Positions 754-51,980 of a stretch of DNA of 51,980 nucleotides are shown here, piece by piece. The notes beneath the pieces are model-generated. The model saw only the letters and a list, made by a program, of their open reading frames with translations, was not told the DNA's origin and searched no databases. Origin of the DNA: a virus. The stretch spans positions 1 through 51,980 of IMG/VR virus record IMGVR_UViG_3300038427_000258; one strand, given 5' to 3'. The first letter of the stretch is position 1; each line of letters opens with the position of its first letter. Made by a program: the position numbers and the translations under genes.

Positions 754-1245
754 ATGACAGGGGAGCAGTTGCATTTTCGCTATTTAATGAATCTGACTGG
801 CGAGTTGCGGGGACGCGAGCCGGAGTGGGCATCCGCGTCGGATGCATATCGGCGGGCGTGGGATGCGCTCGCGGCGGAGCTAAATGCAGACGAGCATGTC
901 ACAGATCGGCTTCTCGCTGAACGCAACCACCTTTTGAACATGGACGAGCTGGAATGTGGCGCACACGGTAAGGGTTGCGTACCCGGGGCCATCCAGGCAG
1001 TCAAACAACTCGCGTCGTTTGTTCGCAAACCCGAACCACCTCCGCCGGACCACAATTTAGAATTTCATGGCTTGCACGATACTGACGCGAGCAAATGCGC
1101 TTGCCAGAAATCCAGATTCAACCCTACCGAGCGCGTAATGTACAATCCGGCAATGCGCGACCTGATCAGAGAGAAGGTGTTTTCGTCCCCCTGCACTTGC
1201 GGCGAGAGGACGGCCAAGCACTTCCCCGACTGTCCGATGGCATAG
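754..1245 (+). CDS. Hypothetical Cys-rich protein
   Basis: A 163-residue protein with AGGGAG seven bases upstream of its ATG. The first half is helical and acidic. The second half carries cysteine pairs (CGAHGKGC around 67, CAC around 110, CTCG with a later HFPDC near the end) that could bind zinc. Its TAG stop is followed directly by the ATG of the next gene, which suggests translational coupling. No family recognised. Confidence 0.65.
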   Translation: MTGEQLHFRYLMNLTGELRGREPEWASASDAYRRAWDALAAELNADEHVTDRLLAERNHLLNMDELECGAHGKGCVPGAIQAVKQLASFVRKPEPPPPDHNLEFHGLHDTDASKCACQKSRFNPTERVMYNPAMRDLIREKVFSSPCTCGERTAKHFPDCPMA

Positions 1246-1593
1246 ATGGACTACGAAGAATTTCTGATGCCGGAGCAGTACGCGGACCTGTTGCGGCCCT
1301 CGCGAATGCCGCCTATAAAGGCGTTCTGGTACGCGGTGCTGCGCGATGCGCTATGGTGTATGCAGTCAACGGCAAAGAACGGGCAGATGGACCGGCAGCG
1401 CAAGGCGGACCGCGCGTGGGTGGAGAGCTACAGCCGGGAGCCGGGAAGCTTTTTGTTTGTGTGCGAGGTCATCGGGGTGGATGCGCAGGCGTTGCGCGAG
1501 CGGATACTGAGTGGAGGGCCCGCGATAAAACTGAGGAAAAGTCCGGTGATGCGCGGAGCCAAGATAAGGCTGCCGCATCGGAGGGTGGCATGA
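1246..1593 (+). CDS. Hypothetical phage protein with conserved SF-C-LGxD-LR pattern
   Basis: A 115-residue protein starting directly after the previous stop. The pattern AFWYAVLRDAL, then an A-W-E/S segment, then SFLFVCEVIGVDAQALRERI matches a small phage and prophage family known to me by the motif A-W-I-x-S...SF-x-x-C-x-x-L-G-x-D-x-x-x-L-R. The function is unknown and the C-terminal helices could be HTH-like. Its stop overlaps the next start as ATGA, so it is coupled to the secreted protein at 1590. Confidence 0.65.
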   Translation: MDYEEFLMPEQYADLLRPSRMPPIKAFWYAVLRDALWCMQSTAKNGQMDRQRKADRAWVESYSREPGSFLFVCEVIGVDAQALRERILSGGPAIKLRKSPVMRGAKIRLPHRRVA

Positions 1594-2003
1594 GGAAGCT
1601 GATTTATCTGGTCGCGCTGCTCGCGGCTTTGGCCCCAAATGCACGGGCGGGCATCGTCATCCCGGCTGGTGGGGGGCCGCTGATGGCGACCTTTGATTTC
1701 ATCGGGACGCCGGGCGCCAGCCAGAAAGAGGCGTTCACCTGTGTGTATCCAGTTACGGTGCCGACCAATTTTCTGCTGCCCACCAGTCAGGTGACATGCG
1801 GCAGCAACCCGAGCGAGCAGGACATCTATACGGTGAAGATAAACGGCGCCACGGTCGGGACGATTACGCTCTCGACCTCATGCGGGGTGACGCTGGGGAC
1901 AGCGACGGCGACGACGTGCGCGATCGGCCAGAGGTTTGAGATTGATGCGCCGGGGACGGTGAGCGGCGCGGACATCGCGTTCGGGATAGGGATCAGCCGA
2001 TGA
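1590..2003 (+). CDS. Secreted adhesin-like virion-region protein
   Basis: A 137-residue protein starting at an ATGA overlap with the upstream stop. A longer upstream extension in this frame is only a shadow of the 754 and 1246 genes. Residues 1-20 form a Sec signal peptide (MRKLIYLVALLAALA, cleavage ARA|G). The mature part resembles a beta-rich domain common at the ends of phage fibres: a PAGGGPL start, an I-x-x-N-G-x-x-x-G-T-I strand pair, a P-G-T-x-S-G-A-D-I-A-F turn and a terminal basic residue. Four cysteines could form disulfides after export. A signal peptide is unexpected on a phage fibre-type protein. Confidence 0.7.
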   Translation: MRKLIYLVALLAALAPNARAGIVIPAGGGPLMATFDFIGTPGASQKEAFTCVYPVTVPTNFLLPTSQVTCGSNPSEQDIYTVKINGATVGTITLSTSCGVTLGTATATTCAIGQRFEIDAPGTVSGADIAFGIGISR

Positions 2004-2106
2004 CACGCCTCTTCTACGCCATCGCGCTGGTGGGTGCGTGAAGCGCATCCCCCTCATCGCGCTGTGGTTGCTGGCCCTTTGCTGAGTGACCTTGGAGATT
2101 TTATGA
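2000..2106 (+). other. Relay of three overlapping mini-ORFs between two secreted-protein genes
   Basis: Between the stop of the 1590 gene and the start of the 2103 gene three mini-frames follow head to tail. An ATG at 2000 encodes MTRLFYAIALVGA and ends at 2041. A GTG at 2038 encodes a signal-peptide-like 15-mer (KRIPLIALWLLALC after the start) and ends at 2085. A GTG at 2086 encodes five more residues after the start and ends at 2106. Every boundary is a stop/start overlap or abutment (ATGA, GTGA, TGA-GTG, ATGA). They look like remnants of signal peptides from eroded genes, or a termination-reinitiation relay. No evidence that the peptides have a function. Confidence 0.4.
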
Positions 2107-3590
2107 AACGAATTCTTTCGATTCTGTTTTTCCTGATGATGGCGCTGCCAAGGCTGGCGCATGCGCAGTATTACCATGCCAGCTTCTTTAACGGCAGCAC
2201 CACACTGACCGCAACTTGTACCAATACGTCGGGCAGCTATACCTCCTCAGACGTATTTCTAGGGACGGCACAAGGAAACACGACAGTCACGCTTCCGGCG
2301 GCGTCGAGTAACTGTCTGGACTACGACATCATTGATTTGCGATTCACCCAAGCGGCGAGTCAGTCCTACACGTTGACGGTCAACGCAGGGGCGAGTTCGC
2401 AGGTCAAGATTATCTCGAATGGCGGTGTGCTGCTCGCGGCTCCGACTGGCGCGGCATCTGGCGCGGTGAACGTGCTACATCAGATTTGGGTTCACGATGC
2501 GGTCGCGACAACCGATACGTGGGAATTGGTGACGCAGGAGACTGGCGGTGTCAGCGGAATCACCGTCAACGGCGGCATCGCTCAGACTGGCTCTAGCTTT
2601 GTGACGGCTATTGGAACACCGTCGGCCCCGTCTATCGTGTCGGGCTTTACCGGCGGCACAACAGATTACTATTTCTGCGTCGCTGGTGACGTGAACGCGA
2701 CGACGGGAGGTGTCGGCACCACGATCCCCTCAGCGGGTACCGGCACCACGGGCACCACGGGCACGATGTCCTGCGGTGGTCAGACTGGTACGATGATTTA
2801 TTATCTCCTGCGCAAGCTTGTATCTGCTGTGCCGAGCGGAACGAGTACGTTTCTGGTTGGTTCTTGTACGACTACTTCGGGAGTAGCTTGTGATGTCGCA
2901 GATGCTGGTAACACGCTGACCACGTTCACCGCCAATATTGGCGATCTAACAGGTTCTGTGAGATTATCCGGAACGGCCACGTCTGCCCCTTATCTGGTAG
3001 TGACTGAGGGAACCGCCGCGTCTACTTCAGTGATGGGTCCGGTGCCGGGTTTTACGACCTTAGATGCTGGTTTGTGGCTAGGCATTGCGCCTGTCAGCAC
3101 TAGTATTACTAATTACACACTTGAAGGTAACAGTGCGACCACCAACGTTAATGCGGCGAGTGCAAGCGTCAACCTTCAGTCAGGCGGCACAACTTACTTC
3201 ACAACGTCTAGTAGTGGTTCGGGAACGACCACCACGCCAATTACTTCAACCACTGGCGCAATTGGCCCCACTGGCGGCGGTGTCCTGCAATCCTATGGCG
3301 GCACGGCTCCGACTCTCACGGCGGGCTGCAACGGTTCGGGCGCGAGCGCAATAACCGGCACCAATACCCACGGTCACTTCACGACCCAAACTGCGGCGGC
3401 GACCACCTGCACTGTGACCTTTTCCGCGTCGGGCGCCTTCCATGCCGCGCCAGATTGCGTGTTCTACGATAACAACGCTGATGCCACGCCATTAACCTTT
3501 AGCACCGGCGCGATTTCAACAACGACGGCGGTGGTCGATTTCAGCAGCCTTACCGCGACAGACATCGGCTATATCTGCATAGGTAGCTAA
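2103..3590 (+). CDS. Secreted tail-fibre-like protein
   Basis: 495 residues from the ATG at 2103, with GGAG five bases upstream. A canonical signal peptide (MKRILSILFFLMMALPRLAHA|Q) is followed by a Thr/Ser/Gly-rich beta-type protein with no long charged stretch. The last ~90 residues match the C-terminal domain frequent in phage tail fibres: TTCTVTFSASGAF then a P-x-C-V-x-x-D-N-N segment, ending in GYICIGS. The middle (LPAASSNCLDYDIIDLRFTQ, then TLTVNAG) resembles fibre beta-sandwich repeats. Likely a receptor-binding or surface-exposed protein; how an exported protein would enter the virion is unclear. Confidence 0.7.
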   Translation: MKRILSILFFLMMALPRLAHAQYYHASFFNGSTTLTATCTNTSGSYTSSDVFLGTAQGNTTVTLPAASSNCLDYDIIDLRFTQAASQSYTLTVNAGASSQVKIISNGGVLLAAPTGAASGAVNVLHQIWVHDAVATTDTWELVTQETGGVSGITVNGGIAQTGSSFVTAIGTPSAPSIVSGFTGGTTDYYFCVAGDVNATTGGVGTTIPSAGTGTTGTTGTMSCGGQTGTMIYYLLRKLVSAVPSGTSTFLVGSCTTTSGVACDVADAGNTLTTFTANIGDLTGSVRLSGTATSAPYLVVTEGTAASTSVMGPVPGFTTLDAGLWLGIAPVSTSITNYTLEGNSATTNVNAASASVNLQSGGTTYFTTSSSGSGTTTTPITSTTGAIGPTGGGVLQSYGGTAPTLTAGCNGSGASAITGTNTHGHFTTQTAAATTCTVTFSASGAFHAAPDCVFYDNNADATPLTFSTGAISTTTAVVDFSSLTATDIGYICIGS

Positions 3591-3592
3591 AG

Positions 3593-4069
3593 ATGAAATG
3601 GGCAATTAGCGCGCTATTTCTTCTCGCTCTCGCGGCGGTTGTTCATGCGTCCTCTTATTCATGGCCTACTCCCGCGAGCACACCATCCGCCTTTGTTGGC
3701 GTCACGGTTATAGCGACGCCCGCGCCAACGCCCATTCTAGGCGAGCTTTGTTTTCAAGAGTTCGGGCCCGCGCCTACCTACAGCCTTGTGCAACCGACCA
3801 CCTGCGGCCAGAACTTCACCGTGACAGCCAATGACATCGTTTGCACCGGCATCTCTATAGGACCGCCGCAATCGTCTGGCGAACCGAGCGGACCGTTTCC
3901 TTCGACCGTCCAACTCAACGTCAACTCGACGGCCTACAAGAACGTGCCGGTCAATTCGAGCACTGGCTTAATAGGATGCGACCTGATTGTCGGACAGCAA
4001 ATCATCTACGTGCAGCTGATCGGCCAAGCCACGTTCGGGACCGCAACCTCGCAGATTCAGTCCCAATGA
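3593..4069 (+). CDS. Secreted hypothetical protein
   Basis: 158 residues, starting two bases after the preceding stop. Signal peptide [20 protein letters not shown]. The mature N terminus is rich in Pro/Thr/Ala/Ser ([15 protein letters not shown]) and is followed by a compact domain with cysteines near residues 53, 71, 84 and 129 that could pair after export. No family recognised. It sits inside the run of four consecutive signal-peptide genes (1590, 2103, 3593, 4077). Confidence 0.65.
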
Positions 4070-4076
4070 GCAATGC

Positions 4077-4799
4077 GTGAAACCTTATCGCATCATCATA
4101 GCGTTGACGCTGCTCGCGATGTTCGCGTTGGTCTGGCGGGCGAGCGCGCAGGAAGGGCAGAGCTTTTTCTTCAACGAGTTTCCGCAGGGGCAAACCGCCA
4201 CAGCGACCGCGACGCCCACGCCGACGCCCACAGCAACTCCCACTCCGACCGCCACAGCCACGCGTACCCCGACTCCGACAGCTACCGCAACTGCTACACC
4301 CACCCCCACTCCAACCGCCACGACGACCATGACGCCGACACCGACTGCAACCCCGACACCTACATCCACGGCAACCGCGACCCCAACTCCGACCGCGACG
4401 CCGACGCCCACGCCGACCCCGACTGCTACAGCCACGGCCACGGCAACCGCCACGATGAGTCCGGTGCCGACCATGACGCCGGTGCCGACGCCGACTCCCG
4501 TGCCCGGTACTCAGAAAGGTTGGGTCTCGCTAATTCTCTATAAGGACGCGCCAGATGCCGATCTACCAGTACGAATGCAACAACGACCACACCTTCGAGG
4601 AATGGGAACCGCTGGGAGCGGCGACCACGCGGAAGTGCAACCAGTGTCAGGCCCGCGCGCATCGCATAATGAGTCCCGTATCGATCAACTTCGACGTGCC
4701 GTGCGGACCCGCCGACTTCAGAGACTCGCGCCGCGAGAGCGACTACGATCGCAAGCTCGCGGGAGCGTTCAGCCTCGGCAGCGCAATCCAGAAGGCTAA
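4077..4799 (+). CDS. Secreted mucin-like Thr/Pro/Ala repeat protein; 3' end doubtful
   Basis: Signal peptide (residues 1-24, cleavage ASA|Q) and a short aromatic segment (SFFFNEF) lead into a roughly 110-residue stalk of TATPTP-type repeats. In the signal-peptide frame the ORF continues to 4799, but its last ~80 codons overlap the clearly coding zinc-ribbon gene at 4555 and look like a shadow. A one-base slip inside the repeats would instead end the protein at 4541-4543, just before that gene. The repeat number may have changed, or the real protein may be shorter. The stalk may be O-glycosylated if exported; that is inference. Confidence 0.55.
4191..4450 (+). repeat. Degenerate hexanucleotide tract encoding a Thr/Pro/Ala stalk
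   Basis: Imperfect short tandem units of the type ACC-GCN / ACN-CCN fill this stretch. Its first 26 bases (4191-4216) match 27452-27477 exactly, in the second stalk gene. Such tracts are prone to slippage and recombination. The opposite strand reads as a long Val/Gly/Ala frame, which is only an artefact of the repeat. Confidence 0.8.
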
Positions 4800-4818
4800 T
4801 CAGGGAATGAAGCAATGA
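4555..4818 (+). CDS. FmdB-type zinc-ribbon protein
   Basis: An 87-residue protein beginning [20 protein letters not shown], the hallmark of the FmdB/CxxC-CxxC zinc-ribbon family, with a second knuckle KCNQCQ at residues 27-32. The family normally has CxxC in the first knuckle; here only C8 remains, with N9-N10-D11-H12 after it, so the metal site is altered or uses D11/H12. Zinc ribbons of this family recur near phage packaging genes and probably bind nucleic acid or protein. The stop overlaps the next start (ATGAAGCAATGA). Confidence 0.8.
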
Positions 4819-5021
4819 AGCTGCGAGTGAGCGCGAAAAACAAGGATGAGGCGGTGGCTATGTCGTGGATCGCGCAGAAGGTGTTCATAGACAATCTTGC
4901 AACCGCATTGGAATGGCCGTTAGACAATTCGCGGGCGATAATTCTGACGATCACAGACGCCAATCACGGTGCGGTGGCCTCGCGCTTCCGCCCGTATTAC
5001 GACGTGAAGATTGAGCCATGA
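4815..5021 (+). CDS. Hypothetical protein
   Basis: A 68-residue protein whose ATG lies four bases before the upstream stop and whose own stop overlaps the next ATG. Mixed alpha/beta composition ([17 protein letters not shown], then IILTITDANHG), with no signal peptide or membrane segment. No family recognised. The tight overlaps on both sides support a real coupled gene. Confidence 0.6.
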   Translation: MKLRVSAKNKDEAVAMSWIAQKVFIDNLATALEWPLDNSRAIILTITDANHGAVASRFRPYYDVKIEP

Positions 5022-6052: not shown

Positions 6053-6286
6053 ATGATCCAAATTGAAATCGGCGGTCTCATCCTGCTCGTCCTTGACATC
6101 ATCCTGCTCATTTGGCTCTCGCGCCTCGCGGGCCGCATCGATGGCCTTACGTCGGAGCCGAAGCGCGGTCCCGGTGTTGTAACGCGGCTACGCGAGGTGG
6201 CGACCGGCGGCCCCGGCTCCAAGCTCCATCTCCCAACCGATTTCGAGAAGGTCGCCAAGGCAAGCGATGATCGAAACGACGCATGA
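6053..6286 (+). CDS. Small single-span membrane protein
   Basis: A 77-residue protein with one N-terminal hydrophobic helix (IEIGGLILLVLDIILLIWL) and a polar, basic cytoplasmic-type tail. It overlaps the start of the large terminase by 20 bases. No family recognised. The position is unusual for a lysis protein, so no holin call is made. Confidence 0.6.
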   Translation: MIQIEIGGLILLVLDIILLIWLSRLAGRIDGLTSEPKRGPGVVTRLREVATGGPGSKLHLPTDFEKVAKASDDRNDA

Positions 6287-9206
6287 CCGCGCGCAACTCG
6301 CACTTGCCGTTAAGTTTGAACTTTACAAGCGCGACTTTGCCCGATTCGCCCTAGAACAACTTCGCATTAAAGGGGCGAGCCCCGGTCAGGTGCTCCCGCT
6401 CGACCTCTCAGTCAAGCCGGTTCAGACCATGATCTGGGCCAAGGTAAGAGAGCAGCTCAAATCGCAGGGCTATGTGCGCGGGCGCGTGCTCAAGGGCCGC
6501 CAGCAGGGTTCGTCTACCTGTACGCAAGGCATCATGTATTGGAAGGCGAGCACCACGCCCAATTTCGACAGCTTGCTCATGGCGCAGGATGGCGACACCA
6601 CGGGCCGCATTTTCGCGATCGCGCGTCACTATTACGATCACGTCGAGCCGTCTTTCAAGCCGATGATTCGCTATTCATCGAAGGCGGAACTCGCATTCGA
6701 GAATCCTGACCAGCGCTCACGTTTTGACAACCCCGGACTTCGTTCGCGCATGGACTTCGTGGATGCCTCAAAGAAGTTCCCCGGCACCGGACAGACTCGC
6801 CACGGCCTCCATACCTCCGAAGCGGCCAAGTATCCATCGGAGACCATCCACGAACTCGCCGCATCTTTTATTCCGATGCTGCATGACCTCCCCGGCACCT
6901 ATCACCTCGATGAATCGACCGCCTATGTTCTCGGTGACTGGTTCCGACAGGGCTGCGACGAGGCGCGCTCCGGCAAGTCGCGCTATTTCTGGGTGTTCTC
7001 ACCTTGGTATTACGATCCCGAATATCAGCTTCCGCTCGCGAAGGGTGAGGTATTCAAACCCGACGCCGAAGAACGGCGGATCATCCGCCTCGCGGCTAAA
7101 GGCCAGAAAAAAGACGGAGTGCCGCCAGTCGCGATCACTCATCGCCAACTCAAATGGCGGCAGGAAAAGATTCGCGAGTTTGAGCTGGCCGGTCTCGCGA
7201 CCAACGGCGCCGAACTTTTCAATCAGGAATACCCGCTCGACTACGAGTGCATCGCCAGTGGTGAAAGAGTTGGGACAGCAAGAGGCTTGATTCCAATCGA
7301 AGAGGTCCGAGAGGGCGATGTTACGACGATGGGACGCGTCGTACAAACGGGAGAAAAAGGCAACAAACTGATTTATAAATTGACGACGAAACGCGGATAC
7401 AGCGTGCGCGCGACGGGAGAACATCCTTTGCCGACATTGGAAGGCGAAGTTCGTCTTCAGGATGCAATCGGCCATCATGTTAAATTAGGTCGCCCGCAAT
7501 TTGCGAATGCTCCATGCGTCGTCAGATGGGATGAAGATTTTGGCATCGAGTCTCATCTTCAAATCCGAAAATCTTTCGCGCGATTTTTGGGCTATTTCAT
7601 GGGCGATGGTAGTTTGGCTGTCGGAAAAGGAAACAAGAACGGAGCATCCAATATTTCCATCTGCTGTGACGCGCGGGACACCGATGTCGTCAAAGATGTC
7701 TCGGACTTGCTCACTTCATTTTTCGGTCGCCAACCACAAGTGCGCGCAGTAGGAACGAATCGCGGTGGAACTGAGGTACGGACGAGCAGTACTTCGTTTC
7801 TAACATTAGCGAAGCGCCTCGGTATCTATTCGCCAGCAGCCCCGCATCGCAAAGTGTGCGTCCCTGAATGTATCTGGCGTTCTCCCGAAGCGGTTATCCG
7901 CGAATTTTTACGTGGCTTATTTGAGGCCGATGCATGCAAGCGAAAAGCGCGCTCGATTCTTCTGTTCTCCAAATACCGGCATTTTTTGGAAGAAATTCAA
8001 CTGCTGCTGCTCGGCTTCGGTATCGAATCTACGTTGACATCAGGAACTAAAGAAGTCAGCCCCGAACGATCAAAAGATGGCAAGGGTCATTCCTATGTTT
8101 GCAACGAACTCACGCTGCATGCGGTTGCGACGAGCCTGTTTGGCGAGCGGATCGGGTTTGTCGGTCAGCGTAAGTCATCTTCATTCGCGATCGCAAAAAA
8201 ACGTCAAGGACGCAACGCCATCCCCCAACGTGGCATCGATGAAGTAGTAAGCGTGGAACCGTGTGGCTCCGCAGTAACCTACGATCTCGAACTCGAAGAA
8301 CCTCATCTCTTCGACGCGCACGGTATCCTTGTCCACAACTCAGCGTGGATCAGCTTCGATGCTTTCGTGTTCAATCGCGGCAAGCTGTTGAAGATGCAGC
8401 AGAGCGCGCCCGAACCGAAGCTCATGCGTATGCGCGGCGCGCCCGGTTCGCTTCCCGCCGAATCGTCACAGGATCAGTTTGGTCTCGAATCGGAATACCG
8501 TGCGGTGTGGGGACTGCCCGAAAAAGGCAAGTTCTACGACATCGGGGTGGACGTTTCGGCCGGCATCGAGGGTGGCGACTGGTCGGTATTGGAAATCATC
8601 GAGCGATTTTCCAACAAGCAGGTGGCCGAGATTCATCTGCAAGCTGACATCGTGGACCTTGCCGACGAAATCTTCTGGTGGGGAGCCTGCTACAACTGGG
8701 CGCAAGTCGCCATCGAGTTCAACGCCGAAGGCATTTCAGTCAACCAGTTTCTTCAGCGCAAGAATTATCCCTATTTGTACTTCTGGCGCAACCGCGGCGG
8801 CGCGTTCCCGAAGGTGACTAAAATCACGGGATGGAAAACCCAGCGCGATTCCAAGCGGCTGATGGTCACTATGACGCAAGCCAAATTCAATCGCGATGAG
8901 GTGGTCATCAACTCGCGGTGGTTGCTGCACGATTTGAGCAACTTCGTGCGATGGCCGTCGGGCGAAGATTGGAGTTACGGCGCGAGTCAGGGTCACGATG
9001 ACCGCCCGATGAGCTGGATGATTTCACTGATCGCAAGCGACGACGAAACGGTGGGGCTGACTGAGGAGACGAACATCGCGCTCAGACCGAAAAACACCGA
9101 TGCGTTCGACATCAGCTTCATGGAGCCACTCGACAAGACGGACGAAAAACGCATACAACGCTTATATCAACGGAGTTTGGGACATGCCAAAGAAAGCGAC
9201 TGGTGA
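6267..9206 (+). CDS. terL: Terminase large subunit precursor containing an intein
   Basis: A 979-residue precursor; without the intein (residues 328-691) the mature protein would be 615 residues, typical for large terminases. The ATPase part has a Walker A-like loop GRQQGSST (about 78-84), a Walker B-type HTSEAA with E185, and a coupling-type motif HLDESTAY (213-220). The nuclease part carries D762 in YDIGVDVSAG, E817 in VAIEFNAEG and D911-D912 in GHDDRP, the acidic triad of an RNase H-like fold. The enzyme pumps DNA into the prohead through the portal and cuts it. The gene overlaps small genes on both sides. The intein must splice out because it separates ATPase from nuclease. Confidence 0.93.
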   Translation: MIETTHDRAQLALAVKFELYKRDFARFALEQLRIKGASPGQVLPLDLSVKPVQTMIWAKVREQLKSQGYVRGRVLKGRQQGSSTCTQGIMYWKASTTPNFDSLLMAQDGDTTGRIFAIARHYYDHVEPSFKPMIRYSSKAELAFENPDQRSRFDNPGLRSRMDFVDASKKFPGTGQTRHGLHTSEAAKYPSETIHELAASFIPMLHDLPGTYHLDESTAYVLGDWFRQGCDEARSGKSRYFWVFSPWYYDPEYQLPLAKGEVFKPDAEERRIIRLAAKGQKKDGVPPVAITHRQLKWRQEKIREFELAGLATNGAELFNQEYPLDYECIASGERVGTARGLIPIEEVREGDVTTMGRVVQTGEKGNKLIYKLTTKRGYSVRATGEHPLPTLEGEVRLQDAIGHHVKLGRPQFANAPCVVRWDEDFGIESHLQIRKSFARFLGYFMGDGSLAVGKGNKNGASNISICCDARDTDVVKDVSDLLTSFFGRQPQVRAVGTNRGGTEVRTSSTSFLTLAKRLGIYSPAAPHRKVCVPECIWRSPEAVIREFLRGLFEADACKRKARSILLFSKYRHFLEEIQLLLLGFGIESTLTSGTKEVSPERSKDGKGHSYVCNELTLHAVATSLFGERIGFVGQRKSSSFAIAKKRQGRNAIPQRGIDEVVSVEPCGSAVTYDLELEEPHLFDAHGILVHNSAWISFDAFVFNRGKLLKMQQSAPEPKLMRMRGAPGSLPAESSQDQFGLESEYRAVWGLPEKGKFYDIGVDVSAGIEGGDWSVLEIIERFSNKQVAEIHLQADIVDLADEIFWWGACYNWAQVAIEFNAEGISVNQFLQRKNYPYLYFWRNRGGAFPKVTKITGWKTQRDSKRLMVTMTQAKFNRDEVVINSRWLLHDLSNFVRWPSGEDWSYGASQGHDDRPMSWMISLIASDDETVGLTEETNIALRPKNTDAFDISFMEPLDKTDEKRIQRLYQRSLGHAKESDW
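7248..8339 (+). mobile_element. In-frame intein with LAGLIDADG homing endonuclease
   Basis: 364 residues inserted between E327 and S692 of the terminase, at the conserved EYP segment before the nuclease domain. Block A starts with Cys1 (CIASGERVG). Block B has TGEH at 56-59. Two LAGLIDADG-type motifs, FLGYFMGDG (113-121) and FLRGLFEAD (220-228), keep both acidic residues. Block F runs TYDLELEEPHLFDAHGI and ends VHN, followed by Ser as +1 residue. All residues for class 1 splicing and for endonuclease activity appear present. The insert is visibly less GC-rich in codon use than the flanking terminase, consistent with later acquisition. Confidence 0.92.
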
Positions 9207-9757: not shown

Positions 9758-11584
9758 GTGGCCGCCGCATCCGCCGAAATAATCACTACCAAGAAGGGTA
9801 GTTTTACGAGTCATCTCCCTGCCGATTCGGGCAGTCCCGAGATGATCCGCAAGCTTGATCAGATCGACGGTGAGGGTAAGAGCGCGCGTGATGCGGTAGG
9901 CCGGAAGTGGGACTCGGATATTCGCAAGTGGCAGGGCCGCGAGCCACAGTCGCCCGCGCGCCCCGACCCTATCTTTCACGCCGACATTCTTCAGTCCGCT
10001 ATCCAGCGCAAAATCTCGCTGCTTTCTGAAGGCAAGCCCATCCTCGACATTCAGCCGCGCCGCTACGGTCTCGACGCGACCGGCATCATCTTGAAGGCCG
10101 CGACCAAGGGCGTGTGGGATCAACAACAGTTTCCCGTGGCGCTGGAAATGCTCCTCACGCTTTCGGGCATTTTCGGTTGTGGCGGTTTCCGCACGCGCTG
10201 GGACCCGTCTTACGCCTACGGTTTCGGAGAAATTACGCTGATGGCGTGGGACCCGCGCAATCTCGCGATCGATCCCGCCGTCATCAACGCATCCGACATC
10301 AATTCAGGCCAGTATGTGCGGTGCGATTCCGTGGTGCCCACTGGCCTCTTGCAACGAAAGTATCCGGGCAAGGCGGAGCATCTAACCGGCGACACGCGGG
10401 TGAAGCCTTCGGAGCCGGAGGCGCGCAATAAGTCGGGTATCTGGAACATCCGCAACATCTTTCGGGGCGCGAGTGACAAGGTAAAGGATGCGGTGCCGCG
10501 CTCGTCGCTGCGCGAGTACTTTCTGTTCGACCCCGCTATGACTGACGACGGCCTGCCAAAATACCCTAACGGGAGGTATCTGCTCCGTGCTGAAGATGAC
10601 GTCATCCTCAATGACGGTGAGGACGAGGACCAGAATCCGTACTTTGACGGACTTTGCGATCTTGATTTGTTCGATAATCATCCTGACCCAGATCATCCTT
10701 GGGGGCGTTCTGAAATTGAAGCTCTTCAATTTCTTGGGAACGCCTTCAATCGTAGCGGCAATTTGCTTATCAAGTCTTTTATCCGGAATGGCTATCCTTG
10801 GATTGTTGCGGATCGTGGCGCATTGGATGCGGATACTATTCAGGCTCTTCGCGACGCGGAGCAGATGGTCCTCGAAAAAGGCGGCGGACGCGATGTGACC
10901 CGCACGGCGGGTCCGCTGCTCGAACAGGCCATTCCGCTGATGCAGCTCATCCAGCAGGTTATTTTCCAGCAGGCCGGTCTCACCGATCCCGGCATGGAGG
11001 GGCGCGGTCGCGTGGAATTGCGCAGTGGCACGCAACTCGAAGGCTTGCAGGATGCCGCGCAGCTCATCGTGAAGGCGCAGGCGCGCCGCCTCGAAGAATT
11101 GCTTGAGCGCGTCGGCCAGAAAATCATCTCGCGTATCTTCCAGTTCTACGACGATGACCGCATGCTGACTTACTACGGCGGTGGAATGGAGTTTCTGAAG
11201 TATCGCTTCGAGCGGCAGAAGCTTCTTTCGGAAATCATCGCGCTGGGGGTCAAACGCGCGGTTGAGGAAAACGAAAAGAAGGACGAGGCGCTGGGCGAGG
11301 AACATCTCGCGGACGCGATTCTGTTCAGCATCAAAGGTGCATGGAAGGATTTCTCTTTTCGCATAGTGCCATATAGCTCGCTCTCGACCACGCGGCAGCA
11401 GCGCGCGGCGCTCAAAGGGGCGCTCGTGCAGCAGCACATATTGCCTCCGTCAGAAGTGCTTCGCGAGGCCGGCTACGACAATCCCAATGAGAAATTCCAA
11501 GAGGCTGCGGCTGAGTTCAAGGAACTGATGGCGTTGGGTCTGATGCCGCCGCCGGAAGAACAAAAGAAGGGCAAGAAAAAATGA
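9758..11584 (+). CDS. Portal protein
   Basis: 608 residues from a GTG start. The order terminase-portal-scaffold-capsid and the length fit podovirus-type portals. An early segment with the D-I-L-Q-S-A-I-Q-R-K-I-S pattern near residues 70-85 and the ITLMAWDPRNLAIDP segment are typical of portals, where twelve subunits form the DNA channel at one capsid vertex. The C-terminal part is long and helical (ARRLEELLERVGQKI), with a Lys-rich end. It has no ATPase motif. Its stop overlaps the next start (ATGA). Confidence 0.85.
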   Translation: MAAASAEIITTKKGSFTSHLPADSGSPEMIRKLDQIDGEGKSARDAVGRKWDSDIRKWQGREPQSPARPDPIFHADILQSAIQRKISLLSEGKPILDIQPRRYGLDATGIILKAATKGVWDQQQFPVALEMLLTLSGIFGCGGFRTRWDPSYAYGFGEITLMAWDPRNLAIDPAVINASDINSGQYVRCDSVVPTGLLQRKYPGKAEHLTGDTRVKPSEPEARNKSGIWNIRNIFRGASDKVKDAVPRSSLREYFLFDPAMTDDGLPKYPNGRYLLRAEDDVILNDGEDEDQNPYFDGLCDLDLFDNHPDPDHPWGRSEIEALQFLGNAFNRSGNLLIKSFIRNGYPWIVADRGALDADTIQALRDAEQMVLEKGGGRDVTRTAGPLLEQAIPLMQLIQQVIFQQAGLTDPGMEGRGRVELRSGTQLEGLQDAAQLIVKAQARRLEELLERVGQKIISRIFQFYDDDRMLTYYGGGMEFLKYRFERQKLLSEIIALGVKRAVEENEKKDEALGEEHLADAILFSIKGAWKDFSFRIVPYSSLSTTRQQRAALKGALVQQHILPPSEVLREAGYDNPNEKFQEAAAEFKELMALGLMPPPEEQKKGKKK

Positions 11585-27392: not shown

Positions 27393-28471
27393 AACGACTG
27401 GGGGCGTGGGTATTGCTGATATTGCTGGTGTGGTGCGGTGTTGCGTCGGCGCAAACCGCCACAGCGACCGCGACGCCGATTCCGACGCCGACCGCTACTG
27501 CGACGCCCACCCCCACGGCGACACCAACCCCGACTCCGACACCGACGGCTACGCCGACCGCAACGCCTACTGCCATCTGCGGCTACGATGGAAACGCATA
27601 CAATTCAAATTCAGGCACGGGAACTAGCGTAACCATCAGCTTTACGGGCGGTCAGGCGAATAGTCTCGCGTTGGTGCAGGTTAACCTGGCTATTCCTACG
27701 GCATCGGCGACGCCTTATCCGCCCGTCGAGTATGCTTTTGAGTCGTTGCCCTCGAATTGGTATGAGGTAGCAGCCACCGCGGAAAGCGAGCAGACGCCAC
27801 CACAAGGGGCAAGCTTCTTACTGGCTTATCAGCTCCCCAGTTCGAGCACGAGTCCGGTGGTTCTGACGACTGGGGCGGGATCTACTTATTATAGTTGGCA
27901 AGAACAATCGTTTTATGGCGTGCCGACTTGGCTCGACACGCTACAAGCTGCCGCGAGCGCCGGTGAAGATAGCGGATTAAGCGCCACGTCCTATCCTCAG
28001 GGTTCCGTAATTACTAATCCCTTTCCGTGGCTACCCGGCCTAGAAGTATTCTTCACTGGCACGACATACACGGGGACCGACAATACATTTTCAACTCCGA
28101 TTTGGTCCTACGGGAGTCCCGTCCTGATCGGTCAGACCAGCGGGGTCGAATATCCCGATGCTATGGCGTATCAGTATTTTCCCACGACTCCCCCGAATTT
28201 GGGGCCAATCGTATGGCCGATGAGCATCGGCACCTATGCGTTCGGGCGAGCGGGGAACTTCGCGGTGGGACTATCGTGTGGTGCATCTACCCCGACACCT
28301 ACGCCGACAGCCACTCCAACCGCAACAGCAACTGCGTCAGCCACCGCGACCGTTGCCCCGACCGCTACGGCAACGCCCACAGCGACCCCGAGCCCTGCGC
28401 CTACACCTTACTGCCCTCCGCATGGGGGACCGGCCTACTACACTCCGAGCGCTAACCAATGTTTCGGATGA
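27389..28471 (+). CDS. Secreted protein with two mucin-like stalks
   Basis: 360 residues: signal peptide 1-21 (cleavage ASA|Q), a ~37-residue Thr/Pro/Ala stalk, a ~240-residue beta-rich domain (VTISFTGGQANSLALVQVNL, aromatic-rich middle), a second Thr/Ala/Pro stalk, and a short C-terminal loop with two cysteines (YCPPHGG ... NQCFG). The start of the first stalk is identical in DNA to that of the 4077 gene over 26 bases. It is coupled to the ejection gene upstream and to the tailspike downstream (ATGA). It looks like an exported surface or adhesin protein; function unknown. Confidence 0.7.
   Translation: MKRLGAWVLLILLVWCGVASAQTATATATPIPTPTATATPTPTATPTPTPTPTATPTATPTAICGYDGNAYNSNSGTGTSVTISFTGGQANSLALVQVNLAIPTASATPYPPVEYAFESLPSNWYEVAATAESEQTPPQGASFLLAYQLPSSSTSPVVLTTGAGSTYYSWQEQSFYGVPTWLDTLQAAASAGEDSGLSATSYPQGSVITNPFPWLPGLEVFFTGTTYTGTDNTFSTPIWSYGSPVLIGQTSGVEYPDAMAYQYFPTTPPNLGPIVWPMSIGTYAFGRAGNFAVGLSCGASTPTPTPTATPTATATASATATVAPTATATPTATPSPAPTPYCPPHGGPAYYTPSANQCFG
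27452..27576 (+). repeat. Thr/Pro/Ala stalk repeat tract, copy sharing 26 bases with 4191
   Basis: Short degenerate ACN-CCN/GCN units encode the first stalk of the secreted protein at 27389. Bases 27452-27477 equal 4191-4216 exactly, 23 kb away, so the stalks probably arose by duplication or exchange a recombinase could repeat. Confidence 0.75.
28288..28410 (+). repeat. Second Thr/Pro/Ala stalk tract of the 27389 gene
   Basis: A further run of ACN/GCN/CCN codons encoding [16 protein letters not shown]-type sequence near the C terminus of the 27389 protein. Less regular than the first stalk. Confidence 0.65.
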
Positions 28472-40321: not shown

Positions 40322-40996
40322 TTAGTTTTTGCCAGTTAGGAATTTGTCGAGGTCATACGCCTCGCGATACAGCTCGAACATGCGGAACGCCTTCGCGAGC
40401 TTCGGATGCGCGAGCGGAAACGAGCGATGCTCGAAGTCCGCGCCGTCCTTGCCGAACCGCACGACGTGAATATTGCCGGTAATCGGCTGGTCGGGTCGGT
40501 TGACATTCCAAAGATGCTGATAGGCTGCGAGCTGGATGAGGTTGTCGAAGTAGAACGATTTCGATGACTTCCAGTCGAGAAGCGAGAGCGTGTCATCTTT
40601 CTCGACCGCGATGGCGTCGGGCGTCCCGCCAAAACGGTGGCACTCGCAGACCAGCGGAACCTCGACTGGCGCGATTTCGAGGTGCATCCCCTCCGCCCAT
40701 CGCGTGAAGGCCGCGAAGCCGGAGTTGGCCTGATCCGCGTGCTCCCGCTTCATTCCAGCGGGCATGTCGGGCAGCGGCTGGTTGCGCACGCACGCCTCGA
40801 TCATCTCGTGAATCTGGGTGCCGACATCGCCCGCCGCGTCGCGCGACTCGTAAAGCGGCTCGTTGGGGAAGTCCTTACCGCGCTTCCACGCCCATTGAAT
40901 GAGCGCGCCGGACTCCTTGAAGCGACCGATGATCGTGGTGGTGCCAGGGACTTTCGTGCCGTCCTTGACGCGGTAGCCTTCTTTCGGGGTTGCCAT
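40322..40996 (-). CDS. PD-(D/E)XK exonuclease (RecB/Cas4-like)
   Basis: 224 residues. Motifs in order: GTQIHE (59-64), D127 in GGTPDAIA, LLDWKSSK with D141 and K143, and QLAAYQ (155-160), the RecB-family nuclease signature. Such enzymes resect DNA ends and work with RecT-type annealases. Here the recT-like gene lies at 41551 on the other strand, behind the divergent promoter, so exonuclease and annealase are controlled separately. No Cas4 iron-sulfur cysteines. Confidence 0.85.
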   Translation of the reverse strand: MATPKEGYRVKDGTKVPGTTTIIGRFKESGALIQWAWKRGKDFPNEPLYESRDAAGDVGTQIHEMIEACVRNQPLPDMPAGMKREHADQANSGFAAFTRWAEGMHLEIAPVEVPLVCECHRFGGTPDAIAVEKDDTLSLLDWKSSKSFYFDNLIQLAAYQHLWNVNRPDQPITGNIHVVRFGKDGADFEHRSFPLAHPKLAKAFRMFELYREAYDLDKFLTGKN

Positions 40997-41312: not shown

Positions 41313-41561
41313 ATGAAGCGATGTGAGAAATGTGACCAGCCGTGCGACGTGGAGACCGTCTACTGGGAAGAGTCCCACGGATTCAGCCAAGGGCCGCGCG
41401 AGCAGTGGAGCGCGGAAGTGTCTGATTGCTGCCACGTCGAAGTCTACGAGGATGGAAAGGATGAGCCGGACGCGCCGAACGACCACGCGGCCGCTTTTGC
41501 GGAAATGCTGTTCGAGTACGGCGTGCGGCTCGCGAAGGAGCAAGCAACCAATGGCAAATGA
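41313..41561 (+). CDS. Small Cys-rich protein, first gene of the replication block
   Basis: 82 residues from the ATG at 41313, with GGGAG upstream. CEKCDQPC near the N terminus and CC in the middle suggest zinc binding; the rest is acidic. Overlaps the RecT-like gene by 11 bases. No family recognised. An upstream in-frame start lies inside the promoter and is rejected. Confidence 0.6.
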   Translation: MKRCEKCDQPCDVETVYWEESHGFSQGPREQWSAEVSDCCHVEVYEDGKDEPDAPNDHAAAFAEMLFEYGVRLAKEQATNGK

Positions 41562-42510
41562 ACTAACAGTGGTCGAGCAGGCGGACTTAACCAAAGACCT
41601 CGCGTCGCTTTATCGCGTGACGCCGGGCGAGCTAATCAAAACCGTCAAGGCGCAATGCTTTCCCGGCGGGGCCGCGAGTGACGCGCAGCTCGTGATGTTC
41701 CTGACGGTGTGCCGCGAGCGCAAGCTCAATCCCTTTATGAAGGAAGTCTATGCCTTCATGCAGGGCGGCAAGATGCAAATCGGCGTCGAAATCGACGGCT
41801 GGATTCGCAAGGCGAACGAGCATCCGCAATATGATGGGTGCTCGTTTGACGACAGCTACGTTAACGACAAGCTGTTTAGTGTGACGTGCAAGATTTTCCG
41901 CAAGGACCGGAAGCATGCGGGCGAGTACACGGCATTGTTCAGCGAGTGGAACGTGTCGAGCAACCAGGTGTGGAAGGACAAGCCGCGTCACATGCTGGGG
42001 ATCAAGGCGTTCAACCAGTGCGCGCGTTTCACGTTGGGGCTGACGGGAATCACGGACGAGGAAGCGCAGGAGTTCGCGGGTGCGAGCGGGGCGGCGTCGG
42101 CGCCGGTGGTGGCGGAGGAGCCGGAAGAGGCGGTGGTGGTGGCGGTGGATGAGGAAACGGGCGAGGTGGTGGGCGCGACGCCGCCCGAAGAACTAAACGA
42201 GTCCGCTGCGGGCGCCCAGGCTGAGTCGGAGAGCAGCCGGTCTGCCGGTTCGACTCCGGCCCCGGCTCAGCCACCTTACAAAACTGTCAAGGAACAAGTC
42301 GCAGCAGCAATGCCCGAAAACGCGAAAATCGCCGAAGAGGAGAAAAAGCGCGGTCGCCCCAAGTCCGCGAAAACCAAGCTTAAGGAGATGAACCTGCCGA
42401 GCGCGCGCATCACGGTCATCTGCGGACAAGCGGGCGTCGCGAAGCTGGATGACTTAACTGAGGAGCAAGCGGCGGCAGCGGTCGCGCGGCTCGAAAAGCG
42501 AGGTAAGTAA
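41551..42510 (+). CDS. recT: RecT/Bet-type single-strand annealing protein
   Basis: 319 residues from the ATG at 41551. The first ~180 residues (VTPGELIKTVKAQCFPGGAA, then RKLNPFMKEVYAFMQ, then VEIDGWIRKANEHPQY, then HMLGIKAFNQCARFTLGL) are characteristic of the Bet/RecT family, including the N-P-F-x-K-E-V-Y motif. A long acidic Glu/Ala-rich linker and a C-terminal domain with a Lys-rich segment (EEEKKRGRPKSAKTKLKEM) extend it beyond typical Bet length. It anneals complementary ssDNA during phage recombination; probable partners are the RecB-like nuclease and the SSB-like protein. Confidence 0.85.
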   Translation: MANELTVVEQADLTKDLASLYRVTPGELIKTVKAQCFPGGAASDAQLVMFLTVCRERKLNPFMKEVYAFMQGGKMQIGVEIDGWIRKANEHPQYDGCSFDDSYVNDKLFSVTCKIFRKDRKHAGEYTALFSEWNVSSNQVWKDKPRHMLGIKAFNQCARFTLGLTGITDEEAQEFAGASGAASAPVVAEEPEEAVVVAVDEETGEVVGATPPEELNESAAGAQAESESSRSAGSTPAPAQPPYKTVKEQVAAAMPENAKIAEEEKKRGRPKSAKTKLKEMNLPSARITVICGQAGVAKLDDLTEEQAAAAVARLEKRGK

Positions 42511-42511
42511 G

Positions 42512-43147
42512 ATGGGTGTAAAAGTGTCATTCAAAGACGTACCGGATGCCGGCCAAGGCGGAACGATTCCTCTCGGCAAGTACCCGTGCCGACTTCACGT
42601 TGACGCCTATCAAGTTGACGAGCAGAAGAATCCGATGCTCGACGGCGACGGCAACAAGGTGTTCTATCGTTCCTCGAATCAGGACATCCAGTGGAAAATC
42701 CGACTGGAAATTCTCGATGGACCATTCGCTGGACGCGAGTTGTTCGACCAGTTGACCTTCTCGTCGGGTGGGCTCAAGCGCATCAAGGTGCTCGCGTCGC
42801 GCATCGGCCTCGACACGCAGAACGAAATCGAGATGGAGCCGGAGGACTTAGACGGAAGCTATTGGAACGTCGAGGTAGATCGGCACGAGGTCGCGCAGAC
42901 CAAGCAGGGCACCGTGAAGGAATCGAAGTACACCTTCCATCGCGGCTCGTGTGTCTGCGACACTTGCAAGACTTACGACCAGAAGAACGTGAATGTGAAC
43001 TCGCGCATCGCGTTCGCGGGCTTCGAGTTGATGGATAGCGAGACCGCGATGCGGCTGAGCAAGGTTCACAAGAAGGAAAAGGTGAGCGGCGATGGATCGG
43101 CTAGTTCTACAGAATCAGGGGAAAGTTCGTCCAAGCTTCCCTTCTAA
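42512..43147 (+). CDS. DUF669/SSB-like ssDNA-binding protein
   Basis: 211 residues, one base after the annealase stop. Core: TIPLGKYPCRLHVDAYQVDE, then WKIRLEILDGPFAGRELFDQ, then SGGLKRIKVLASRIGLD; this pattern of beta-barrel strands occurs in phage DUF669-type proteins encoded beside annealases. A zinc-like pair CVCDTC is present. The end SSTESGESSSKLPF resembles the acidic SSB tail ending LPF/IPF that recruits partners. It overlaps the helicase gene by 56 bases. Confidence 0.75.
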   Translation: MGVKVSFKDVPDAGQGGTIPLGKYPCRLHVDAYQVDEQKNPMLDGDGNKVFYRSSNQDIQWKIRLEILDGPFAGRELFDQLTFSSGGLKRIKVLASRIGLDTQNEIEMEPEDLDGSYWNVEVDRHEVAQTKQGTVKESKYTFHRGSCVCDTCKTYDQKNVNVNSRIAFAGFELMDSETAMRLSKVHKKEKVSGDGSASSTESGESSSKLPF

Positions 43148-44816
43148 AGCGCTCTCGTCGGTCGAGGGCTGGGGTCCGGCGTTGTGCGCCCGCGCGGCGA
43201 AGCGCTGGCCCAAGCTCCTCGACGACCCGGAGCTGCGCGCCGACCCCTACCAGCTTCAGGAGCTTCACGGCGTGGGGTTCCTGAAGGCGGACGCGGCAGC
43301 GCTCGCCATCGGCATCGCGAAGGATGCGCCCGCGCGCCTCAACGCAGCGGCGGGCTACGTTCTCGCGAACGCTGAGCAGGAAGGTCATACCGGACTGCCG
43401 GTGAACGAGTTCGCGAAGCGGATGGGCGAAGCAATTGGGATGCGCCTGCCGCGCGAGGTCGAGTTCGACGAGACGCTAATCGAGTTGGATGATGATTTCG
43501 TGCAGCGCGTGGCGACGGCGCGGGCCGAGCGCGCGGTCGCGATGGTGTTGAAAGGTATGATGCGCGAGCGCGAGCCGCTGCCGGAGTTCGACACAGCCGG
43601 CCTCGCGAACGACCAAAAGGAGGCAGTCGATGCGATTCGTTACTTCCCTGTGTTTGTACTGCTTGGCGGCCCCGGGGTGGGCAAGACTCACACTATTAGG
43701 ACTCTACTTAATGGTTTGGGGGAGCTGGACGTGGCGCTCTGCGCGCCGACTGGCAAGGCAGCGAAGCGCATTGAAGAACTTTCGGGACGACCCGCGCAGA
43801 CCATACATCGGCTTTTGAGGCCGAATTTCGAGAGCGAGAAGTGCGCGCACTCGGCCGGCTTCTCGTTTCAGTACAACCGGACGCATCCGCTGCCTCACGA
43901 CGTGGTAATCGTGGACGAGGCGTCGATGATAGACATCCGGCTGATGGCGGACTTGTGCGAGGCGCTCGGGCCGGATGCGCGGCTGATTCTGGTGGGAGAC
44001 CCGTTCCAGTTGCCTGCGGTTGGACCTGGTGCCGTGCTGCGCGACTTGACGCGAGCAAATGCGGCGCACACCGGCCATTGCGTCCCGAACTTCGAGCTGA
44101 CCGAACTCAAGCGACAAGACCCTGCACTGCTCATCGCGAAGAATTGTAAGGCAATTCGCTACGAAAAGCGCGTTTTCGTAGACAACAGCGCGGCCGCGGA
44201 CTTCTTTTTCGCGGAGGAGCGGGATGCCGCGAAGGCCAAGGCGCTCATCGTGGACCTCGTGACGAAGCGCCTACCTGCGAAGTACGGTCTCGACCCCGTG
44301 AAGGACATCATGGTACTTACGGCGCTGCGTGATCGCGGCGAGTTGTCCGCGAAGTCGCTCAACCTCGCGCTCCGTGAGAAGCTGAATCCCGATGCCGTGA
44401 TGACGGTGTGGCCGGCGTTCTATCCGGGCGACCGCGTGATACAGCTATCGAACAACTACCAGCTCGATATTATGAACGGCGACATCGGGACGGTTCGTGA
44501 AGTCGAGGGCGCGTCGCTGATGGTGGAGTTCGACACACCGAAGCGCGAGGTTGAAGAGGACCGCGAGGAGTTTCATCTCGACCTCGCGTATGCGCTGACG
44601 GTTCACAAGTTTCAAGGTTCGGAAGCGCCGTGGGTGGTCATCCCCGTTCACGAAGAGATGGGCGCGATGGTGCCGGCGGCGCAATGGCTCTATACGGCGG
44701 TGTCGCGCGCTCGGAAGGGTTGCGTGCTGGTGGGCACGCGCAGCGCGCTCGACGCGATGGCTGCGCGACATAGGGACGTGATGCGGTGGACAAAATTGGC
44801 GAGGTTGCTGCAATGA
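43092..44816 (+). CDS. RecD-like SF1B DNA helicase
   Basis: 574 residues. N-terminal helix-hairpin-helix-type region (LQELHGVGFLKADAAALAIG). Motif I GGPGVGKT (192-199), motif II DEAS (275-278), motif III GDPFQLP (302-308), motif V/VI region ALTVHKFQGSE and YTAVSRAR near the C terminus. This is the 5'-to-3' RecD2/Dda class. The coding start overlaps the SSB-like gene. It probably unwinds DNA for replication or recombination. Its stop forms ATGA with a small gene. Confidence 0.9.
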   Translation: MDRLVLQNQGKVRPSFPSKALSSVEGWGPALCARAAKRWPKLLDDPELRADPYQLQELHGVGFLKADAAALAIGIAKDAPARLNAAAGYVLANAEQEGHTGLPVNEFAKRMGEAIGMRLPREVEFDETLIELDDDFVQRVATARAERAVAMVLKGMMREREPLPEFDTAGLANDQKEAVDAIRYFPVFVLLGGPGVGKTHTIRTLLNGLGELDVALCAPTGKAAKRIEELSGRPAQTIHRLLRPNFESEKCAHSAGFSFQYNRTHPLPHDVVIVDEASMIDIRLMADLCEALGPDARLILVGDPFQLPAVGPGAVLRDLTRANAAHTGHCVPNFELTELKRQDPALLIAKNCKAIRYEKRVFVDNSAAADFFFAEERDAAKAKALIVDLVTKRLPAKYGLDPVKDIMVLTALRDRGELSAKSLNLALREKLNPDAVMTVWPAFYPGDRVIQLSNNYQLDIMNGDIGTVREVEGASLMVEFDTPKREVEEDREEFHLDLAYALTVHKFQGSEAPWVVIPVHEEMGAMVPAAQWLYTAVSRARKGCVLVGTRSALDAMAARHRDVMRWTKLARLLQ

Positions 44817-44935
44817 AAATCGACTGGACTGAAATTCGTTGGAGACTGTGGGGCGCCTGGCGGTCGTTATGTGGCAACTACCCGCTTCGCGCAGAAAAAT
44901 CATATCCATGGCGCGGGCTATTTATTCCAAAGTGA
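44813..44935 (+). CDS. 40-residue Trp-rich small protein
   Basis: Starts at the ATGA overlap with the helicase stop. The product MKIDWTEIRWRLWGAWRSL (then C20, GNYPLRAEKSYPWRG, LFIPK) has six Trp in 40 residues. Its 3' end overlaps the start of the ERCC4 gene in another frame. The overlap-coupled start and unusual composition argue for a real gene, but it is short. Confidence 0.4.
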   Translation: MKIDWTEIRWRLWGAWRSLCGNYPLRAEKSYPWRGLFIPK

Positions 44936-45399
44936 AGCGCGAGCCGCCCGTCATCCTCGTAGATTCCCGCGAGCAACGCCCGCTCGACTTCGACGACGCG
45001 CCGCGTCGGTTGGCAACTCTCGAAACGGGGGACTATAGCGCGGAGGGCCTGGAGCGGATCATCTGCATTGAAAGAAAGAGTGTCTCGGATCTCTATGGAA
45101 CCGTAGGCAAGGGTCGCGAACGCTTTGAGCGCGAGATCGTGCGCGCGTCGAAGCTCTGGTACTTCGGCATCGTCATCGAGGGCTCGCTCGAACAAGTGCT
45201 CCTCGGCGCCCCGCACTCGCAGATGAGCCCGCACAGCGTCATCGGCTCACTGCACTCCTGGGAGTTGCGCTACCCCAACATTCACGTTCACTACGCGGGC
45301 AACCGGCTGCTCGCGGCGGCACTCGTGCGGAAGCTGCTGTATAAGTGCGCGGAGTACGTCGAGCGGGGCGAAATCAAGTTTGACGAAAAGATGACATAG
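44908..45399 (+). CDS. ERCC4-type (XPF/Mus81-like) endonuclease
   Basis: 163 residues from the ATG at 44908; in-frame ATG 44869 and TTG 44839 are possible upstream starts. ILVDSREQRPLDF, then ETGDYS, then IERKSVSDLYG give the ERCC4 catalytic signature (V-D-x-R-E...G-D-Y...E-R-K-x-x-x-D). It cuts branched DNA such as flaps or junctions, so it may resolve replication intermediates made by the helicase/annealase set. Confidence 0.85.
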   Translation: MARAIYSKVKREPPVILVDSREQRPLDFDDAPRRLATLETGDYSAEGLERIICIERKSVSDLYGTVGKGRERFEREIVRASKLWYFGIVIEGSLEQVLLGAPHSQMSPHSVIGSLHSWELRYPNIHVHYAGNRLLAAALVRKLLYKCAEYVERGEIKFDEKMT

Positions 45400-51767: not shown

Positions 51768-51980
51768 ATGCGGGAAATGCAGCTCAAATGCCGTCACTGT
51801 CACGGTGCCGAACCTCACACCTGCTCTGTTGCTCTCAGCGATTCGGAGAAGGGCAAGCGCGCCGTTGACGCCAGGGAACGCAAGCGCAAAGCAGACAAGC
51901 GCCCCACCGACCTCATCGACCCCGACAAGGATTGCCGCGATGCGGGAAATGCCACTCCAACCCTCGCTAAACCCCAAACC
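51768..51980 (+). CDS. 5' part of small zinc-finger-like protein crossing the join
   Basis: Starts at ATG 51768 and runs off the window end; with the circle closed it ends at base 133 (72 residues in total). Cys/His cluster CRHCHG at residues 8-13. Likely the first gene of the rightward late block, under control of the 51608-51767 region. Confidence 0.65.
   Translation, partial: MREMQLKCRHCHGAEPHTCSVALSDSEKGKRAVDARERKRKADKRPTDLIDPDKDCRDAGNATPTLAKPQT
51854..51980. repeat. Terminal direct repeat, copy 2
   Basis: Identical to bases 1-127. One copy should be removed when the circle is closed. Confidence 0.95.

Follow-up and report, generated by a model that had tools for sequence, protein, structure and literature searches.

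The terminase gene and its phage

A single open reading frame of 979 aa, interrupted in frame by an intein, lies in the window, by which we mean the whole viral contig IMGVR_UViG_3300038427_000258 (positions 1-51,980; 51,980 nucleotides). The features of the host gene and of the surrounding genome are as follows.

6267..9206, plus strand: large terminase (TerL) open reading frame including the intein, 979 aa (open frame, alignment, profile and fold)
6267..7247, plus strand: N-extein, TerL ATPase domain, residues 1-327, ending QEYPLDYE (alignment with intein-free TerLs; fold match to T4 gp17 and the P74-26 ATPase)
6492-6518, plus strand: Walker-A-like KGRQQGSST in the N-extein
7224..7247, plus strand: QEYPLDYE, the N-side half of the conserved insertion motif, offset 5 after QEY
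8340..9206, plus strand: C-extein, TerL part with the RNase-H-like nuclease domain (about nt 8535-9041; fold match to the G20c, P74-26 and RB49 TerL nucleases)
9758-11584: portal gene, downstream of TerL
40322-40996 (minus strand), 41323-42510, 43092-44816 and 44839-45399 (plus strand): cluster of recombination genes (PD-(D/E)XK exonuclease, RecT/Bet-like annealing protein, RecD2-like helicase and ERCC4-family nuclease)

After removal of the intein, the exteins total 615 aa. This sequence is 23-27% identical to the TerLs of named phages, and the RQxGxST and E185/D398 positions are invariant in the alignment. A profile of TerL extein sequences matched T4 gp17 (E 1.4e-17) as well as the nuclease domain of a thermophilic phage TerL, and the AlphaFold model of the precursor matched T4 gp17, the P74-26 ATPase domain and the G20c nuclease. 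No terminase domain was matched in the 979-aa frame by Pfam, and the TerL identity therefore rests on alignment, profile and fold comparisons. As judged by these, the host protein is a phage large terminase with predicted ATPase and RNase-H-like nuclease domains, encoded upstream of the portal gene. With respect to the insertion point, the profile paired the motif FxQEYPxxxEAF with FRQEHTAAF in T4 gp17, at a position upstream of the nuclease region that was matched. In the precursor model (pTM 0.53, at which the relative orientation of the domains is unreliable), the intein follows the last helices of the ATPase part, which extend to residue 321, and precedes the strands of the nuclease, which start at about residue 757. 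Alignment and model thus support an insertion between the two domains. The first-pass annotation, made from the letters of the window, had named the large terminase as the host and a conserved ATPase/nuclease inter-domain motif as the site, and both assignments are borne out by these comparisons.

The carrier of the intein is an uncultured tailed phage. The contig ends share an exact direct repeat of 127 bases (1-127 = 51854-51980), so the genome is probably complete, at about 51.85 kb. A contig from another metagenome, IMGVR_UViG_3300018020_000430, is 99.92% identical over 4942 bp including the intein, and can be taken from this identity as the same virus. The genome also contains Thr-Pro-rich coding repeats in 66-bp tandem units (4077-4799), and at 27471-27558 there is another array, of 18-bp units with similar sequence.

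Anatomy and relatives of the intein

The intein and its parts are located as follows.

7248..8339, plus strand: intein, 364 aa, from Cys1 to His-Asn, ORF residues 328-691
7248..7250, plus strand: Cys1, N-terminal splicing nucleophile (invariant in 34 family members)
7413..7424, plus strand: block B T-G-E-H, intein residues 56-59 (T56 and H59 invariant, 34/34)
7557..8225, plus strand: LAGLIDADG homing endonuclease domain, about residues 104-326, bounds approximate (Pfam LAGLIDADG_3; fold matches to I-DmoI, PI-PfuI and PI-SceI)
7584..7610, plus strand: first LAGLIDADG motif FLGYFMGDG, with D120
7905..7934, plus strand: second LAGLIDADG motif FLRGLFEADA, with D228 (final Gly replaced by Ala, unique among 34)
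8226..8339, plus strand: C-terminal splicing region, blocks F and G, last residues HN (363-364) (TIGR01443; H363 and N364 invariant)
8340..8342, plus strand: +1 Ser, in place of Glu in the conserved EAF motif

The element shows the features of class 1 inteins, namely a Cys nucleophile, block B TxxH, a C-terminal HN, a +1 Ser, the Hint fold and a flush in-frame insertion, and it can be classified from sequence and model as a class-1-type intein with predicted splicing. Its residues C1, T56, H59, D120, D228, D346, H363 and N364 have no exception in the alignment of 34 family members. Among the 57 conserved columns of this alignment, the window intein departs at one: the last residue of the second LAGLIDADG motif, Gly229, is replaced by Ala (Gly in 33/34 members). 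The AlphaFold model of the intein is confident (pLDDT 94.4) and shows a Hint and LAGLIDADG fold; its best PDB matches are the VMA inteins, PI-SceI and PI-PfuI, and the endonuclease part matches I-DmoI. The codon usage of the intein is also distinct: its GC3 is 0.49, as compared with 0.69 and 0.72 for the exteins on either side, and lies under that of all 118 comparable 364-codon windows in the other genes of the phage (range 0.58-0.81). A chance origin of the intein signature was ruled out by the 979-aa open frame, the 34 full-length close homologues and the confident fold.

These results agree with the first-pass annotation in several respects. Its boundaries of the intein prove exact to the base, the splicing residues and both LAGLIDADG acids that it listed were all found, and the lower GC content in codon use that it reported is confirmed by GC3. 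The Pfam search that it proposed gave a mixed outcome: LAGLIDADG_3 matched above its cut-off (E=2.9e-16), but Intein_splicing remained under the curated cut-off (25.6 vs 35.8 bits), while the splicing regions TIGR01445 and TIGR01443 matched above theirs. It had also asked that relatives be checked for empty sites. Viral-contig scans gave 9 loci with the single sequence and 56 loci with the profile, and TerL is the host of all 34 close full-length homologues, with the same QEYPxxxEAF motif, the frame and the spacing kept. The TerLs retrieved by the extein profile are intein-free, 48 intein-free TerLs carry the same motif uninterrupted, and the spliced exteins align without a gap across the junction with 8 intein-free phage TerLs. 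Empty sites with an intact motif were thus obtained, but none in a close relative: the single-protein scan for close intein-free relatives gave only the same virus (L002), and the TerLs of the profile scan are about 30-31% identical (best about 31%) and therefore too distant to demonstrate recent homing.

More distant inteins are present in cultured or named phages (TerL of the crAss-like cr56_1, a mycobacteriophage portal gene and the ribonucleotide reductase (RNR) of a Bacillus phage), and the nearest relatives in the scan of cellular genomes are mainly RNR inteins, at about 28% identity. The genome-contig scan gave no assignment of the phage host. Its single close homologue, L157, is a TerL contig from the bin of a Hydrogenedentes MAG and has its intein at offset 1 after QEY; the 12 others that were read are RNR inteins.

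Variation of the insertion point

When the insertion points of the window intein (span 7224-8366) and its 34 relatives (loci among L003 and L014-L061) were compared as offsets after QEY, the 35 rows were distributed over offsets 0 (5 rows), 1 (9), 2 (15), 3 (1), 5 (the window intein alone) and 6 (4). The N-side and C-side residue counts to a conserved aromatic residue nevertheless add up to 7 in 35/35 rows, and the same spacing is found in 48 intein-free TerLs; the motif pattern used for these 48 presumed seven residues, but the gapped alignment and the printed motifs show the spacing independently. The place of the intein therefore varies without gain or loss of extein residues. The offsets cannot be explained by mis-called boundaries, because every row starts with Cys, ends with HN, is followed by Cys, Ser or Thr and has distances that sum to the intein-free spacing.

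At least 12 changes of offset are required on the intein tree; the smallest number possible is 5, the mean for shuffled offsets is 17.9, and 0 of 200 shuffles were as low. The insertion position is inherited, yet it often changes. Well-supported groups mix offsets: L015, L027 and L043 (offset 1) fall with L021 (offset 2), and their exteins are 45-50% identical. The extein tree has long branches, and its detail is not trusted. Fixed allelic families do not account for the pattern, since a branch sets the rows at offset 6 apart, but offsets 0, 1 and 2 show no such grouping. The positions also show a preference for sites with a natural Cys, Ser or Thr. Among 32 distinct motifs of intein-free TerLs, Cys, Ser or Thr occupies the common offsets 1 and 2 in 53% and 41%, respectively, and the other offsets in 0-6%, and the association of the inteins with such sites is stronger than uniform placement would give (P = 0.0001, from a hand-made clade-level count). 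At offset 5, intein-free motifs have Glu in 29/32, and the window has Ser.

On balance, we lean towards the view that one TerL intein family shifts by whole codons within one motif, with the extein length kept, and settles where a +1 nucleophile exists or is tolerated, so that the sites are not fixed alleles and the window intein has replaced a conserved Glu with Ser. A similar picture would be expected if related inteins had invaded one hot motif independently. A shift of the site could arise if the endonuclease cut is repaired inexactly and selection favours products with a usable +1 residue and a spacing of seven residues, and the RecT/Bet-like annealing protein and PD-(D/E)XK exonuclease of the phage itself could be agents of this repair. 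The shifting site is the unusual part of the family; we found no description of such site sliding in the searched part of the literature, which included few subscription papers. Intein alleles are usually defined by a fixed site, and this family provides material for studying how an intein can move by one or a few codons and leave the extein undamaged. In addition, the varied positions provide natural exteins that differ at the -1 and +1 residues, which is useful in splicing work.

Proposed homing, alternative functions and known systems

The element is very probably a mobile class-1-type intein with a LAGLIDADG homing endonuclease in TerL, which splices out, leaves a working motor and homes. 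It has the anatomy and the predicted fold of such an intein, it is inserted flush and in frame, its close family is confined to TerL, and its low GC3 relative to the other genes of the phage fits an acquired element. We infer splicing, cleavage activity and homing as follows. First, the precursor would be translated as a single chain, from which the Hint domain (Cys1, block B His, His-Asn and +1 Ser) would remove the intein and ligate the exteins into a normal TerL. Second, the freed endonuclease would cleave the corresponding motif when a co-infecting phage has a terminase gene without the intein, and the intein would be copied into that gene during repair of the cut.

Among the alternatives, a splicing-competent intein whose endonuclease is already losing activity, at a late stage of the homing cycle, is unlikely. 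The window intein is the sole member in which Ala closes the second LAGLIDADG motif, and this substitution could weaken the nuclease. However, both catalytic acids and the other 56 conserved columns are kept, better than in most members, and the predicted fold is intact.

A regulatory role, in which conditional splicing times the assembly of the packaging motor, had been suggested by the first-pass annotation and appears quite improbable to us. The idea is not new, as it was earlier proposed for the TerL of Mic1 (PMC7156551). Because the 364-aa insert occupies the inter-domain junction, unspliced TerL is probably an inactive motor, and splicing would then gate its activity; such inactivity, however, is not enough to give splicing a regulatory role. 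In a reporter, splicing proceeded readily for five terminase inteins of mycobacteriophages (PMC5050341), no sequence feature marking conditional splicing was found in the window intein and TerL sequence, and the changing insertion point together with the intein-free TerLs from the extein profile is more in keeping with a parasite than with a conserved switch. That the insert is never spliced and simply adds a fused domain to the terminase is barely credible, since the splicing residues are all invariant and the flush junction restores the conserved motif.

The homing intein proposed here can be compared with several known systems. Terminase inteins make up about 40% of the inteins of mycobacteriophages, more than any other kind, and intein-free TerL genes were cut by both of the two mycobacteriophage TerL inteins tested (PMC5050341, Kelley et al. 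2016). Like the window intein, these are phage TerL inteins with homing endonucleases. Their sites are designated a-g, and TerL1-a and TerL1-b, which lie one residue apart, are a precedent for closely spaced sites; all were reported in the ATPase domain, and unlike the window intein none was described at the ATPase-nuclease junction motif (PMC5050341). A TerL intein is also carried by Delta-group crAss-like phages (PMC7886860), to which, in our reading, cr56_1 belongs. The cr56_1 intein occupies the same motif and has a LAGLIDADG domain (27% identity over 327 residues), but it differs in its offset, which is 0 by eye (AEH|CITPQEAC), its divergent sequence and its TAG-recoded gene. On that contig (L012, region 990-4872), a gene annotated as a homing endonuclease is directly upstream of the intein-bearing TerL. 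The TerL of cyanophage Mic1 has two inteins, one of them with an endonuclease (PMC7156551), in other TerL motifs than that of the window intein. Outside TerL, the inteins of class II ribonucleotide reductases of bacteria and archaea share the LAGLIDADG domain (about 28% identity) but not the host gene or site, and the VMA inteins, PI-SceI and PI-PfuI, with solved structures, share the Hint and LAGLIDADG fold at 10-18% identity in other hosts. Terminase inteins are already well known, and the window intein, taken by itself, is one further example, placed at the hinge motif and not in the ATPase core. The shift of the insertion point across its family is the more useful result.
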